From the NCBI GenBank assembly GCA_024399035.1, contig JAKSID010000003.1, forward strand, positions 1-64,000: a DNA stretch of 64,000 bases, written 5' to 3'. Position numbers and translations under genes: made by a program. Source of the DNA: Fibrobacter sp. GTDB taxonomy: Bacteria; Fibrobacterota; Fibrobacteria; Fibrobacterales; Fibrobacteraceae. The notes under the pieces were generated by a model. It worked only from the letters and a program-made list of their open reading frames with translations, was not told where the DNA came from and made no database searches. Shown here one piece after another: positions 44,084 to 60,572 of this stretch; the first letter of the stretch is position 1; each line of letters begins with the position of its first letter.

Positions 44084-45970
44084 TTAGCCTTCTTCCTGCA
44101 TTCTGTTGGAAAGCGGATCGATGGTCAAGTTACCTTGGTAGACCTGGCCGCTGCCCAAGCGCTTGGAGTCAACATTCAGGAACAGGTTCCCGCCCTTAGA
44201 TTCCAACCAGTAGACTGCGTCAGAATCGCGGAGATAAGCGCGGGGGCCAACAAGCCCGTTTTCAGAATCCACCAGTTCACCGCCCAAGAACAGCGGAATA
44301 TCCACGGCTTTGTACAAATCGAGAATAATGGAGGATCTACGTTCGTGAATGTCGGTTAGATCAAAGTAATCTGTAATCTTTAGGTGGTCAATGCCATCGA
44401 TGAATACAACCAGGTTGGGATGATCCTTGGCTTCTTCCTTCAGGGTTGCAATAAACTCCATGTTGTCAAAGTCAGGCTGGTCATCCCAGATTTCAAGTCG
44501 GTTGCTGCGAACGAATCCCATCAGCTCACGAGTGGCTTCCAGAATCTTCTGGTTCACAGCTTCGTCTTCGCTTTGCTTGCGAACGGTTAGCACTGATTCG
44601 CCAATAAGCATTGCAACCAGTCGGTCGAAAATCTGACGACGGGGAGTTTCGAGGGCAATGTAGATCAGCTTCAGGTTGGGATTGCTCTGGATCAAATCTA
44701 AGGCCATGCTGGACATCAACGTAGTCTTCAAGCCGAAGGGCTTGGAGGATACATAGAAGCAACCGGACTGGATGCCGTCAATAGTCTTTGTCAGCTTGGG
44801 GAAGGTACTCAAGGAATAGCCCACGCGAACGTCCGGCGGGCAGCCCATGGCGGTATCGAAGTTTTCCTTGATATCCTGCAAGAGCATAGAACGGCGGTGG
44901 GTATGGACGGTGTCTTCTTCAGTCTGACAAATCAAATTGAGCAACTGGTCGGCACCGTTCTTGCGAACCACCTTGTCTACAGTTTCTTCCTTAGGAAGTA
45001 CGATGGACTTAAACTTCAGATTCAGTTCTTCCGCCATCTTCAAGTATTTTTGAATGCGAAATTCTTGTTCGCGACGGTCCTGTTCACGACGGAGAATGAC
45101 GGTAACGGAATCTGCACCGCAAGCCTTCAGCTTGTACAAGTGGCTCAGGGAAAGTTCCTGGTACATGGTGGAAACCACGCCGGGAATGCCTGCCAGGTCG
45201 GCGGTCAATGCGTCAAAGAAACCTTCTACGATAATAGGCTTGCTGTTCTCTGCCTGAATGTTGAAAGGAATGTCGCTAGGACCGGAAGCGTAGGATACAT
45301 AGGTGTGGTTGCTGTCTGCGTCGTCCAGAACGCGGCCGTACACAGAATGAATCAAACCCTTGGAGTTGCGGGCGGGAATGGTGATTCTCGGCTCGCGGTA
45401 GGCTTCTAGGTTGTCCAAGTAGAAATTGATCTGGTGGCGTTCGATGCCGGAGAGCATGCAGTAGCTTGCAAAGGGTTCCGGGTCGCCGCTATAATAGCCG
45501 ATACCGTACAGTTGAGCCTGCCCAATGCTCCAGCCGCGGGACTGCAAAAATTCTGCAGAAGAAGGACTCTTGCAAGCAGCCCAATGGCAGTAACGCACAA
45601 AGTTTTCAAGGACCTTGGACTTTTCGCCGCCGATTTCCTTGATCCAGGGATGTTCATCCTGGCTCGGATCATGCTCGGGTTCCAATGTGCCTAGAAAATC
45701 CAATGCTTCGGCGCGAGCCTGCGGCTCTTCCATGCCGTTGAAACGGCTACGCATTACGAATTCGATCAAGTCGCCTTCACTTCCGCACTGCAGACAGCGA
45801 TAACGCCAGTAACCCAAGGCGTCGTAGAAGAACAGGGATGTTTCTTCGGGAGAGTGGAAGGGGCAGCAAGCGATAAGGTTACGACCCCAACGGCTCAGAG
45901 GGATTCCCAGCTGGCGCGGATGGGTCTTGGCTCGCATGATAATACCGGCATGTTCTTGATCTATAAGCAT
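44084..45970 (-). CDS. Degenerate primase-helicase fusion (CHC2 + Toprim-like + DnaB-like)
   Basis: 628 residues in the order of phage T7 gp4 or Twinkle. Residues about 30-85 hold an intact CHC2 zinc finger (CPFH ... CLQC). A Toprim-like region keeps the first Glu (IIVEGFFDAL), but the DxD expected in YDGDRAG-type segments reads ILRREQDR, and the DPD site reads ETVD. The C-terminal RecA-like domain has KPFGLKTT where a P-loop would be PxxGKT, and VVFIDGIDHL as Walker B. It faces ruvC and is followed by a GT4 gene. A role in DNA metabolism is inferred; catalytic competence is doubtful. It is not a normal DnaG. Confidence 0.75.
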   Translation of the reverse strand: MLIDQEHAGIIMRAKTHPRQLGIPLSRWGRNLIACCPFHSPEETSLFFYDALGYWRYRCLQCGSEGDLIEFVMRSRFNGMEEPQARAEALDFLGTLEPEHDPSQDEHPWIKEIGGEKSKVLENFVRYCHWAACKSPSSAEFLQSRGWSIGQAQLYGIGYYSGDPEPFASYCMLSGIERHQINFYLDNLEAYREPRITIPARNSKGLIHSVYGRVLDDADSNHTYVSYASGPSDIPFNIQAENSKPIIVEGFFDALTADLAGIPGVVSTMYQELSLSHLYKLKACGADSVTVILRREQDRREQEFRIQKYLKMAEELNLKFKSIVLPKEETVDKVVRKNGADQLLNLICQTEEDTVHTHRRSMLLQDIKENFDTAMGCPPDVRVGYSLSTFPKLTKTIDGIQSGCFYVSSKPFGLKTTLMSSMALDLIQSNPNLKLIYIALETPRRQIFDRLVAMLIGESVLTVRKQSEDEAVNQKILEATRELMGFVRSNRLEIWDDQPDFDNMEFIATLKEEAKDHPNLVVFIDGIDHLKITDYFDLTDIHERRSSIILDLYKAVDIPLFLGGELVDSENGLVGPRAYLRDSDAVYWLESKGGNLFLNVDSKRLGSGQVYQGNLTIDPLSNRMQEEG

Positions 45971-56225: not shown

Positions 56226-57386
56226 TCACTTTGCAATATTTGCACGGTGGGTCACAGAAACCTTGTGACCGACTTCGATGCGACGATTGTTGGAGTAGAT
56301 CTCGCGAATGAGAATTGCTGCTTCGTTTTCGGCAGCTCTTGCGATCACGCCGCGGCCAAGGAGGTGCGGAGGAATAGTTGCATCAGAGGTGTCTTCTTCC
56401 CACACGGCGATTGCATCGCCAGTGTTGTAGCCCTGCTGTGCGCCCTTGTCAATCAAGACGTAGGAGTAGGCTCCGATAACCAGAGCGGGATCCATGGCGT
56501 AACGAATCATGGCGAGGGAGTCCATCATCACTGCCTTTTCTGCAGAGTAGCCAGTGACGTTAATGGTGTTCAAAGGCATCTTGACGCGAGCCTTAGCCTG
56601 AGCCATCTTGATTTCGCGGAAGCTCTGGACAATCTGTGCACGAGAAAGAGTATCGCCGATAGCGGTAATCTTTGCGATGCCAGAGAGGCGGAGCAATGCG
56701 TAGTTATCAAAGGTACGGCCCTTACCCGGAACGTCGATAGCCTTTGCATCGTAAATTTCAATCAGGTCGCCCTTCTTGAGATTTTCGTGGGTCTTTTTGC
56801 CGAGGCCAACGAGAACTTCGTGTTCGGGCATATGAACGAGGGGCTGCTTCTTTTCGGCGGAGCGAATAGAAATGAAGCTAGAATCGTTTTTCAAAGAATC
56901 CAAGACATAGACCACCGGAGCGAGAGCCTGGTAGTAACCGTTGAACGTCTTGGGAGCCGGGCGCTGAGAGTAGCTGTACTTGTCTTCTTCGCGCTTCTTC
57001 TTCTTGTTCTTGGTGTCCTTGTCGCGCAGATCGCCCAACATGGATTCAAAGTTTTCGTCACGGCCGTCGGAGTCGCAACCTGCGGAGGTAATGCCCTTGG
57101 GGAGGTCTGCGTCGGAAACTGCGGCGTCACAGGGGAACTTCTTGCTTGCCTTCTGTTCTGCAGCCTTCTCGTTAACACCATCGCCAAAGTAGATGGAGTC
57201 ACCCGGATAAATCCAGTGCGGGTCCTTAATGTGGCGGTTGTTTTCCCAAAGATCCGGCCATGCGAACGGATCCTGAAGGAATTCGTCACTCAGGTCCCAA
57301 AGGGTGTCGCCCTGCTTGACAACGTAGGCTGAGGCCAACAGTGCGGTCAAACCGAGGCAGATAGAAGCACATTTGAAAAATCGCAT
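56226..57386 (-). CDS. LysM-domain exported protein
   Basis: 386 residues. Signal peptide ([15 protein letters not shown]), then a LysM domain at about 20-70 ([45 protein letters not shown]). The rest is beta-rich with a possible SH3- or BON-like section in the last third ([20 protein letters not shown]...[23 protein letters not shown]). LysM binds peptidoglycan, so the protein is probably periplasmic. It sits 45 nt upstream of the sensor kinase... genes downstream in the run, and may provide a cell-wall link for the signal. Confidence 0.85.
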
Positions 57387-57417: not shown

Positions 57418-58785
57418 TTAGCCTTTTCTTTGTTTAAATGTTGGCACTTCCGTTGCAAAATGGGGCTGTTCAGGGCGATTTGAGCGAGAAACTCGTTCTT
57501 GAGGACGCTGAACATTACGGGATTTTGCCGCCATAGCGGGGTTTTGTCCCAAAATTCCGGCTCTGTCAGGTACAAAAATGAACAAAATGTCAAATTTGCC
57601 GCTGCCCGGTTCCAAGTACAGGGGGATGCTTTTGCGGAGCATATAGCTTTCGCGACGGAATCTCTTGATTTCCTTGACAGCAACTTCCAAATCGGAGGTC
57701 TGGAGCAAAATTCTTTCGGGACGAGCCTGTGCTGCGGCCTGTTCTACGCCAGGAGGCAGAGTTTCTTCGTTAGGAAGGTTAAAGTAGAAGGTCCAACGGC
57801 CTTCGTTTTCCTTTTTGTTGAAGAACTTCGGGAAAAACTCGGCTTCCACATGTCCACGGTGGAAATGCATGTTTTCGTCGATGACTCCGCGAGCGTTCTT
57901 TCTGGAAGAAAGCATGGCGTATTCGCGACAGTCCATGGAATCCACTCTCTTGAACTGGCTTGCAAGCATGGAACTTACAAAGCTGCTACCGGAGTAGAAT
58001 TCAAAGAAGCAATCTTCGGGATTGGGATGGATGGCGCCTGCAATGCGGGAGGGGAGTCCGTTCCATGCGTCACGAATTCTCGGAGCCCAGTCCAGAACGT
58101 GCATGTAGGAACCCGTTTCGCCAATTTGTACGAAATCGTTTCCGAAGGCAGCCTTAGCTTCAACCTTCATGGCCTGTGTTCCTGCGGGGTCGAACAGATG
58201 ATCCGGCAGGCACTGGATGTGGTGGCAGCTAATGATTTCTGGGCAGTTGCGCTCCAGGAAGTCGACGAAAGTCTTGTATCCGTGGGCGGAGTTACGGCCC
58301 TTCAGGTTCACCTGGACCAGCAAAGCAAAGTTCCCGTTACCTGCGGCACGGAACCACACCTGACGGAGAGCCTTGCTGAAAATGCGGAGGTGATCCTTCT
58401 TCAGCTGTTCAAAAACCTTGGATACGATTTCAGGTGCTTCCATTTCAAAGCTGGGAGCTTCGATGGTAAGCTTTTCGTGCTCACCCTGGTAGACTTTGGT
58501 GATTCGCCAGTCTGCGTTTTCTGCGTTTGCTTCTGCGGTGAACCAAGCCTGAATTTTTCCAGGAATTTTCTCTGTTGTAGCCCATGTGGACAACTGCTGT
58601 TTAAGATCTTCGAATGTCAGCTTAGGGCGGACTGCCGGCTTAGGTTGGACTGCTGTATCTCGTTGACCCTCAACGGGTTTTGCATAATCATTTCGCACAG
58701 GACGACGACCGTTGGAACGGGCGTTGTTCAGTCGCTCCTCCCTTACAGGTCGTGTGGAATAATTTCTTTTAGGCTGCTTGTACAT
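57418..58785 (-). CDS. TrmA/RlmD-like methyltransferase-fold protein, catalytic Cys missing
   Basis: 455 residues. A basic, unstructured start (about 1-50) is followed by a region resembling class I m5U RNA methyltransferases: LLVQVNLKGRNSAHGYKTFVDFL, FVQIGETG, and the SAM-motif section FFEFYSGSSFVSSMLASQFKRVDSMDCREYAMLSSRKNA. The usual DPPR and SCNP motifs with the catalytic Cys are replaced by LPNEETLPP and LLQTSD, and the final HxE by KFD. A second basic tail (QRKG) ends it. It may bind RNA without methylating it. It lies 41 nt after the primase-like gene. Confidence 0.65.
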   Translation of the reverse strand: MYKQPKRNYSTRPVREERLNNARSNGRRPVRNDYAKPVEGQRDTAVQPKPAVRPKLTFEDLKQQLSTWATTEKIPGKIQAWFTAEANAENADWRITKVYQGEHEKLTIEAPSFEMEAPEIVSKVFEQLKKDHLRIFSKALRQVWFRAAGNGNFALLVQVNLKGRNSAHGYKTFVDFLERNCPEIISCHHIQCLPDHLFDPAGTQAMKVEAKAAFGNDFVQIGETGSYMHVLDWAPRIRDAWNGLPSRIAGAIHPNPEDCFFEFYSGSSFVSSMLASQFKRVDSMDCREYAMLSSRKNARGVIDENMHFHRGHVEAEFFPKFFNKKENEGRWTFYFNLPNEETLPPGVEQAAAQARPERILLQTSDLEVAVKEIKRFRRESYMLRKSIPLYLEPGSGKFDILFIFVPDRAGILGQNPAMAAKSRNVQRPQERVSRSNRPEQPHFATEVPTFKQRKG

Positions 58786-58826: not shown

Positions 58827-60572
58827 TTACACCAGGAATCGGGGGTAAATCCAAGAGCATTCGCGGGCCAGCATCTTGGGGAATTCGCGGAAGGAACCGT
58901 TAATCTGGTACTGGTTCAGGCTGCCTTCAACAGGTGTCAATTTCATAACACTGTCGGCGCGGGCTTCCAGGTACGGGTATTCGTCCAGGTTGCAAGAAGA
59001 CACCACGGCGCATCCGGTAAGGGCGATGATGGTGTCGATCATCTGCATCAAGATCTGGTGGGGTGCACCGTTCAGTCGGGTAGACTTGGGGTTATGGAGC
59101 ACTGCAGAAATGGGGTCGATGACCACAACGCGGTAATCATGGTTTTCCAGGCGCTTTGCACCCTGAATACGCTTTGCGATAAGCTGAGCGGTTTCAATGG
59201 GGGAGAGTGCTGTACCACGGAGGTTCAAGAAACCGAACTTAGGAGTGCTTGCGTTAAGATTTCTCTTGGCGCCCAGCATGTAAAGGCGGTTCAAGAACAC
59301 GGACTTGGTCAATTCAAAGTTCACGAACAGAACGTCGTTAGAAGTGGTTGCGTTGCCGAACCAATCTTCGCCGTAACAGATGGACAAGCCTAAGTCCATA
59401 AGAGCCAAGGACTTGCCGCTCTTGGGAGGTGCGGTGAACAGGAAGAATTCACCTGTGCGTAGCATGTTGTCTACGATAGACGGGTCTTTCTTCGGAGCTT
59501 CTTCACTGTCGCTAGCAAGTTCAATCAGGGGTTTTCCGTCCAAAGAGTATTCAACCCATTCTTGCCATTCCTTAAATGTCTTTGCGCCTTGTTCCAGACC
59601 GATAAGGTACTGCTGCTTACCACCGCGGAGCACACCAGGCATGCGGACCATCATATGCGGATTGCGGTTGGATGCGTCAACCTTGAAGCCCTGGGAGTCC
59701 AAGGTCTTGAAAAGGAAGTCTACGCGTTCGTTATATTCTTCTTCGTCAGAAGCAAGGATCTTGACCCAAGCCTGCACAGAGTTTGCGCCGGTGTTCACCA
59801 AGGCGGCACAGGGAAGGTTCAAAGCCTTGTAGTAAGCCAACTGCTTGGCCAGGGACATCTTGGGATTGTCCACCACCACGTAACGGTAATGCCAGCTTTC
59901 GTCGGTAGCTTCTTCACCGCCCTTGGTGGCGTTGATGCAAAGCAGGGCGCCTTCGGGGCTGTCAAGGCTCTTCATGATCTTCTTGATAGAATCGTCCTGA
60001 CCAACGATGTTGGAAACAATTTCTTCGGTACTGGAAGGAGTGTTGGAAACCTTGAATTCGATGGTTTCATCGGGAGCGAAGGTCGCTTCCAGGAGCTTGG
60101 CGAAGTCCTTTCGCCAGTCTGCGGCAGGCCATGGAATAGAAAGTGCTTCCGGGTCAATCTTAAAGTTCTGCAACAATTCTAGGGACTGGGTGTCCAGACC
60201 GAGAGCAAGCATCTGCTCCATGGAAATCATGCCGGCGGATAGCGGAGTAATCATCGGCATTGCAATTGGTGCTGCTTCGGGAGCGGGTTGCTGTGCTGCG
60301 GGCTGCTGCTGCTGCTGAACTGGAGCCGGTGCAGGTTCCTGTCTTTCAGAAGTACGCTTTTCTTCGGAGAATGCGCGACGGAGAGTCTGTTCGACTTCGT
60401 CACCATCCATACCTTCGTCGCGAGCCTTGCCGCCCAGCTGGAAACTGGCGTCCATGAAGGTCCAACCTTCTTCCATTGCGGCAACACCGGCCTTGTAGAG
60501 CTCGGTCTTGACTTCTCTGCCGGAGAAGCTATTCTTCAGAAACTGGTTGATAATTTTTCTTGAACTTTCCAT
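58827..60572 (-). CDS. Degenerate AEP primase-like / RecA-like ATPase fusion (RepA-type)
   Basis: 581 residues. Residues about 1-80 are charged and helical, then a Gln/Pro/Ala-rich linker (VQQQQQPAAQQPAPEA). About 200-340 matches the archaeo-eukaryotic primase family of phage and plasmid proteins (LNLPCAALVNTGANSVQAWVKI, RMPGVLRGGKQQYLIGL), but NSVQAW replaces KSxHAW, NPHMMVRMPG replaces NPSRLSRMPG, and the usual ExD reads VVD. The C-terminal ATPase is intact: APPKSGKSLALMDLGL (P-loop), RVVVIDPISAVL (Walker B), CAVVSSCN. Likely a DNA-binding ATPase whose primase part has decayed. Confidence 0.7.
   Translation of the reverse strand: MESSRKIINQFLKNSFSGREVKTELYKAGVAAMEEGWTFMDASFQLGGKARDEGMDGDEVEQTLRRAFSEEKRTSERQEPAPAPVQQQQQPAAQQPAPEAAPIAMPMITPLSAGMISMEQMLALGLDTQSLELLQNFKIDPEALSIPWPAADWRKDFAKLLEATFAPDETIEFKVSNTPSSTEEIVSNIVGQDDSIKKIMKSLDSPEGALLCINATKGGEEATDESWHYRYVVVDNPKMSLAKQLAYYKALNLPCAALVNTGANSVQAWVKILASDEEEYNERVDFLFKTLDSQGFKVDASNRNPHMMVRMPGVLRGGKQQYLIGLEQGAKTFKEWQEWVEYSLDGKPLIELASDSEEAPKKDPSIVDNMLRTGEFFLFTAPPKSGKSLALMDLGLSICYGEDWFGNATTSNDVLFVNFELTKSVFLNRLYMLGAKRNLNASTPKFGFLNLRGTALSPIETAQLIAKRIQGAKRLENHDYRVVVIDPISAVLHNPKSTRLNGAPHQILMQMIDTIIALTGCAVVSSCNLDEYPYLEARADSVMKLTPVEGSLNQYQINGSFREFPKMLARECSWIYPRFLV

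Follow-up and report, generated by a model that had tools for sequence, protein, structure and literature searches.

A phage-type primase-helicase relative, very probably domesticated and catalytically disabled, conserved across the Fibrobacteraceae

Bacterial replication is primed by DnaG, and proteins of the AEP type are found in bacteria mostly on phages and plasmids. The phage primase-helicases of family phrog_2597, such as gp25 of Enterococcus phage EFC-1 and RepA of Streptococcus phage Javan31, carry an AEP-like domain followed by an AAA_25 ATPase, and the hexameric helicase RepA of RSF1010 (1g8y) has a RecA-like core with Walker A, Glu and Walker B elements. In the RepA-type phage helicase GP46, the catalytic set consists of Lys, Glu, Asp and His together with an arginine finger on strand 5b (PMC8965321). 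AEPs of the PolpTN2-like and RepB'-like types have Gln in motif II; PolpTN2 is active, and its activity is abolished when both motif I acids are mutated (PMC5862659). Noncatalytic primase parts have also been described: the N-terminal domain of human Twinkle has lost primase activity and still binds DNA (PMC9860392), and in Sulfolobus PriX serves as a primase subunit without catalytic activity (PMC5700102, PMC12019639).

Here we analyze a relative of these proteins, gene A, encoded in a window of 64,000 nucleotides (the whole stretch of DNA analyzed) from Fibrobacter sp. contig JAKSID010000003.1. Gene A is an AEP-type protein that is now a nearly universal chromosomal gene of one bacterial family, strongly conserved in sequence and with its catalysis apparently dismantled, and beside it lies a second, independently derived disabled primase-helicase, gene B (Table 1). 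We found no paper on gene A in the literature. Its open reading frame coincides exactly with the interval drawn for it in an earlier note on this sequence, starts with ATG and is preceded by a AGGAAGGA-like ribosome site.

The sole Pfam match of gene A is AAA_25 (residues 353-524, E 2.2e-20), PHROGs assigns residues 181-524 to phrog_2597, 'DNA primase' (E 3.1e-72), and RSF1010 RepA comes up in a profile search (E 1e-7). An AlphaFold model from 63 sequences (mean pLDDT 74.7, pTM 0.45) contains a helical N-terminal domain, a disordered linker, an AEP-like domain and a RecA-like domain. Its matches among PDB structures are RecA-like rings and filaments, with a core like that of DnaB, KaiC and RadA, and a Foldseek search of viral structures returns whole-length phage primase-helicases (prim-pol; best E 9.3e-35). 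Together with a weak PF01896 match on a phage relative, the phrog_2597 and Foldseek matches place the first domain with the AEPs, an assignment that leans mainly on homology to the 'DNA primase' family and on this moderate-confidence model. The fusion described in the earlier note, a primase-type domain with a RecA-like ATPase behind it, is thus borne out by Pfam, PHROGs and the structural model, and, judged from these sequence matches, gene A is a derived relative of the phage PriCT-2/AEP/AAA_25 primase-helicases.

Gene A has the domain order of the phrog_2597 phage proteins and is 29-34% identical to them over roughly residues 139-524. It differs from them in lacking PriCT-2, the second acid of motif I, the motif II His, the motif-3 His with its RASGSGVFARDPD loop and the C-terminal extension, and also in its N-terminal helical domain, in which hhalign detected no relation to phage PriCT-2 (probability ~0). 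The Pro/Gln-rich linker is its fastest-evolving part. An intact relative of gene A lies with helicase and resolvase-like genes in a phage replication module (L069) on contig C64 of a Fibrobacter MAG (G027); the viral contigs L093 and L094 are 91% and 87% identical to this module.

Table 1. Genes A and B, their parts and the gene adjoining A, in coordinates of the window
Feature	Coordinates	Strand	Remarks
Gene A, pseudo-primase (AEP-like) fused to RecA/RepA-like ATPase	58827..60572	-	581 aa
A, N-terminal helical domain, residues 1-74	60351..60572	-	common to orthologues of Fibrobacteraceae (f1) and sister family (f2)
A, disordered Pro/Gln-rich linker, residues 75-144	60141..60350	-	pLDDT mostly <50
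A, AEP-like domain, residues 145-349	59526..60140	-	phrog_2597 alignment and model
A, motif I D235-N236-P237 (phage E-S-D)	59862..59870	-	second metal-binding acid lost
A, motif II S265-V266-Q267 (phage S-x-H)	59772..59780	-	Gln invariant in f1 and f2
A, motif III acid D299	59676..59678	-	kept across most of genus
A, RecA/RepA-like ATPase domain, residues 360-581	58830..59495	-	Pfam AAA_25; RSF1010 RepA 1g8y profile match
A, Walker A A-P-P-K-S-G-K-S, residues 381-388	59409..59432	-	kept
A, Walker B strand ending in D486	59115..59129	-	kept
A, region 527-540	58953..58994	-	phage motif-3 His and KKSMDRASGSGVFARDPD loop lost; 14-column deletion
Methyltransferase-like gene, next in operon-like block	57418..58785	-	41 bp downstream of gene A
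Gene B, DnaG-type zinc finger, TOPRIM and DnaB-like domain	44084..45970	-	628 aa; candidate partner
B, zinc finger, residues 36-62	45785..45865	-	intact
B, P-loop remnant SKPFGLKT	44723..44746	-	GK to LK

We compared the primase centre with that of 43 viral relatives (IMG/VR) and five phage or phage-like proteins, using 20 sequences of the genus (alignment A3). Gene A departs from the AEP motif I pattern hhhDhD/E: all 43 viral relatives read E-x-D at this motif and all 20 genus sequences D-x-P, and the motif is D-N/S-P in 64/64 genus and near-genus loci. The first acid is retained (E to D, within VVDNP), and the position of the second is Pro in 20/20 genus sequences; more deeply branching relatives have P, N or K/R there. 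At motif II, phage S-x-H, whose His is present in 43/43 viral relatives, corresponds to S-x-Q in all Fibrobacteraceae orthologues, with Gln also in the sister family. The motif III acid, Asp in 43/43 viral relatives, is retained in 19 of the 20 genus sequences, is lost in three genomes of other genera (G063, G095 and G078) and is Glu in the sister family. Directly after it, NPHMMVRMPG corresponds to phage NPSRLSRMPG, with the first Arg lost and the last (R310) retained.

It had been proposed that VVD, NSVQAW and NPHMMVRMPG replace the usual catalytic motifs and that the primase-like domain has disabled catalysis. The wider claim is supported by the lost motif I acid, which in these alignments is strong evidence for a disabled primase, and all three sequences are present and differ from those of intact relatives, although VVD still holds the first acid. 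NSVQAW, however, is no loss by itself: because active AEPs (PolpTN2) carry Gln at motif II, this residue alone is not inactivating. This argument is therefore weak in light of Kazlauskas et al., and the conclusion of catalytic loss stands on motif I. In PolpTN2-like and RepB'-like AEPs the metal-binding acids of both motif I and motif III persist (PMC5862659), which is not the case in gene A. Nor is NPHMMVRMPG a replaced catalytic motif, as the acid preceding it is largely kept and the loss there is that of an Arg.

In the ATPase domain, the Walker A Lys (K387), the catalytic Glu (E420) and the Walker B Asp (D486) are all retained, with Glu at position 420 in 18/20 genus sequences and Asp in 2/20. 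A candidate arginine finger on strand 5b, R562, is present in 19/20 genus sequences (Lys in one) and absent from the sister family. The Walker A, Glu and Walker B elements and the RecA-like core are common to gene A and RSF1010 RepA; unlike the latter, gene A has neither the motif 3 His nor the loop that follows it, and is fused to a disabled primase domain. The viral sequences read HHH at motif 3 in 43/43 cases and the genus C/T-N-x, and phage HHHSKG...RASGSGVFARDPD has become CN.DE... in gene A, with the 14 columns of the loop between motif 3 and strand 5 deleted. In motors of the DnaB/T7 gp4 type this loop contacts DNA, and by analogy with DnaB and T7 gp4 the segment lost from gene A was probably a DNA-contact loop. 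The earlier view of an intact ATPase with clean motifs therefore holds for the nucleotide site but not for the sensor (motif-3) His and the 14-residue loop, both of which are gone.

A first search found gene A in 37/37 genus genomes. Within a survey of 151 genomes of the phylum, 94 of them Fibrobacteraceae, it occurs in 81 of the 94, in single copy apart from one MAG with two copies. Both genomes of the sister family have orthologues (~33% identical), and among the other classes of the phylum in this survey no orthologue was found, save an ATPase-only match in one genome (G056). A search of genus g20 with a deep profile likewise found no hidden gene A. Orthologues from Fibrobacteraceae and the sister family group apart from phages (support 100/97), with a long branch for the latter family, and share Q267, the missing loop, a short C-terminus and the N-terminal domain. 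The best explanation is that gene A was fixed before most present Fibrobacteraceae genera diverged, and its fixation probably predates the split from the sister family; we assume transfer from phage to host, the tree being unrooted.

Gene A is under strong purifying selection despite its lost catalytic parts, with a dN/dS of ~0.043 for the whole gene, 0.033 for the AEP domain and 0.020 for the ATPase. Values of ~0.04 rule out pseudogene decay, and the description of genes A and B as decayed does not stand, gene B having a dN/dS of 0.048 (0.028 in its slowest part, the zinc finger). Canonical DnaG and DnaB genes are present elsewhere in the genome, which rules out gene A as a substitute for either; DciA is found in 29/30 genomes tested, with and without gene A, which rules out a helicase-loader replacement.

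Gene B has a match to the DnaG zinc finger and weak ones to TOPRIM and DnaB_C. As the earlier note had stated, its zinc finger (CPFH...CxxC) is intact and its P-loop damaged, and its TOPRIM DxD is altered as well. A candidate K-x-R arginine finger is lost in genera g17 and g15. This disabled DnaG-TOPRIM-DnaB-like fusion is kept over the Fibrobacteraceae except g20 and lies divergent to ruvC. Against the known defence proteins of PADLOC, it gives weak matches of the zinc finger only.

That gene A has been both domesticated and catalytically disabled is, in our judgment, very likely. With the motif I acid gone and the motif III acid not kept throughout, the usual two-metal site could no longer form in the primase centre, and the RecA-like ring domain retains the residues of its ATP site, and R562 as candidate arginine finger, while lacking the sensor His and the presumed DNA-contact loop. 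Because the metal site and this loop are gone, motif II and the P-loop are conserved and selection is strong, we read gene A as a pseudoenzyme, which would be an ATP-binding and probably oligomeric scaffold or regulator. Its conserved motif II pocket may bind nucleotide or DNA, and it would act at replication forks, perhaps bound to DNA or the replisome, or in repair, beside host DnaG, DnaB and DciA. We infer this placement from the origin of the gene, and a role in the cell envelope or signalling is a main rival. The statement as a whole, that gene A is a domesticated phage-type pseudo-primase-helicase serving as scaffold or regulator in replication or repair, we regard as evenly poised between right and wrong. 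Were gene A to work at forks, bacteria would have in it an equivalent of PriX or of the N-terminal domain of Twinkle. Like gene A, Twinkle joins an inactive primase domain, selectively kept, to a RecA-type ring, but it is an active helicase, TOPRIM-based and closer in type to gene B, whereas gene A is AEP-based and probably no translocase. PriX is likewise a noncatalytic primase part kept for a structural role, but is a partner of PriS/PriL and has no ATPase domain. Gene A is kept in gut and rumen Fibrobacter and relatives, probably for a new job beside the normal replication machinery, and in the cultured relative Fibrobacter succinogenes this could be put to the test.

The neighbours of gene A point to neither replication nor repair and count against such a role. 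Its block runs A-methyltransferase-like (MT)-LysM-histidine kinase (HK)-response regulator (RR)-beta-propeller-solute-binding protein (SBP)-PssA ... B-GT, conserved with small losses in the examined family members that have A, and the adjacency to the methyltransferase-like gene is kept in every such locus. This synteny, and the covariation of LysM rates with those of gene A, would fit a protein that serves the process of its operon, with the nucleotide site as an ATP-dependent switch. We consider such a role rather doubtful, since the domains of gene A originate in DNA replication and the sister family has the gene beside others, a ClpC-like ATPase gene downstream and small lipoprotein-like genes upstream. 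A primase-polymerase that is still active through an unusual chemistry (D-x-P, Q, D) would be helped by the compatibility of a motif II Gln with activity in PolpTN2-like enzymes and by the persistence of D235 and D299 in this window, and residual activity is conceivable given that the E-to-D change of motif I retains one acid. The second motif I acid is nevertheless lost in all members and the motif III acid in some, and the double motif I mutant of PolpTN2 is dead (PMC5862659), which makes an active enzyme the most improbable of these readings. Scarcely more plausible is a decoy role in anti-phage defence, in which gene A, as a defunct version of a phage replication protein, would poison the rings of infecting phages. 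Phages with the intact version, carried by G027:C64, L093 and L094, probably do meet the host, but gene A and the phage protein are ~33% identical, a level at which the two would probably not co-assemble, and, unlike most defence genes, gene A is vertically inherited under strong purifying selection. It also has no PADLOC match, which sets it apart from known defence proteins.

Gene A may also have gene B as a partner in a two-part system, an idea raised in the earlier note. In one such complex, a pseudo-primosome, gene A would supply ATP sites and gene B the zinc finger and DNA-contact elements: A has lost the DNA loop and kept its P-loop, while B has lost its P-loop and kept an R-D element. 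Co-occurrence is nearly strict within the Fibrobacteraceae (both genes in 81 of the 94 genomes, neither in 12, B alone in one, A alone in none), and the genes lie ~13-16 kb apart within the conserved block. In the single genome with B alone (G127, completeness 83%), the gene adjoining A is missing too, so an assembly gap is likely. However, 10 of the 12 genomes with neither gene belong to g20 (completeness of the remaining two, 71-73%), and g20 is sister to the remaining family on an rpoB tree (support 82/67 for the rest), so the joint absence amounts to roughly one event. The sister family, moreover, has A without B in 2/2 genomes, the independent occurrence that the earlier note had named as refuting its two-part idea. 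The residual rates of A and B correlate at 0.74, rank 3 of 66 gene pairs, but the pair drops to rank 7 once the two deepest genomes (G119 and G130) are left out and to rank 11/66 within the genus, and the LysM gene (56226-57386) shows the same covariation (0.72 with A, 0.73 with B). With the positive control HK-RR at ranks 2-6 and pair distances non-independent, this modest signal is only suggestive. A motor with its P-loop from A and its arginine finger from B is weakened by the loss of the B finger in g17 and g15, which also counts against the complex in general. Overall, we think a single complex of A and B unlikely. Its more specific form, a host pseudo-primosome at the fork in which independently derived disabled fusions (AEP/RepA and DnaG/DnaB) complement each other's lost elements, seems to us slightly less likely still.

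The product of the methyltransferase-like gene has no Pfam match and is only remotely like TrmA/RumA-type m5U methyltransferases. A weakly matching 390-aa homologue (L206) has DLYCGYG, DPPRKG and FCGTD; in the product itself NLPN and LLQTSD stand where DPPR and the catalytic Cys would be expected, both of which appear lost, and it may, from these motifs, be a second pseudoenzyme. Two deep Fibrobacteraceae genomes also encode extra standalone AAA_25 ATPases of ~360-373 aa (L253 7657-8739 and L254 2745-3866), which, unlike gene A, retain the arginine loop GQLARDADSL.
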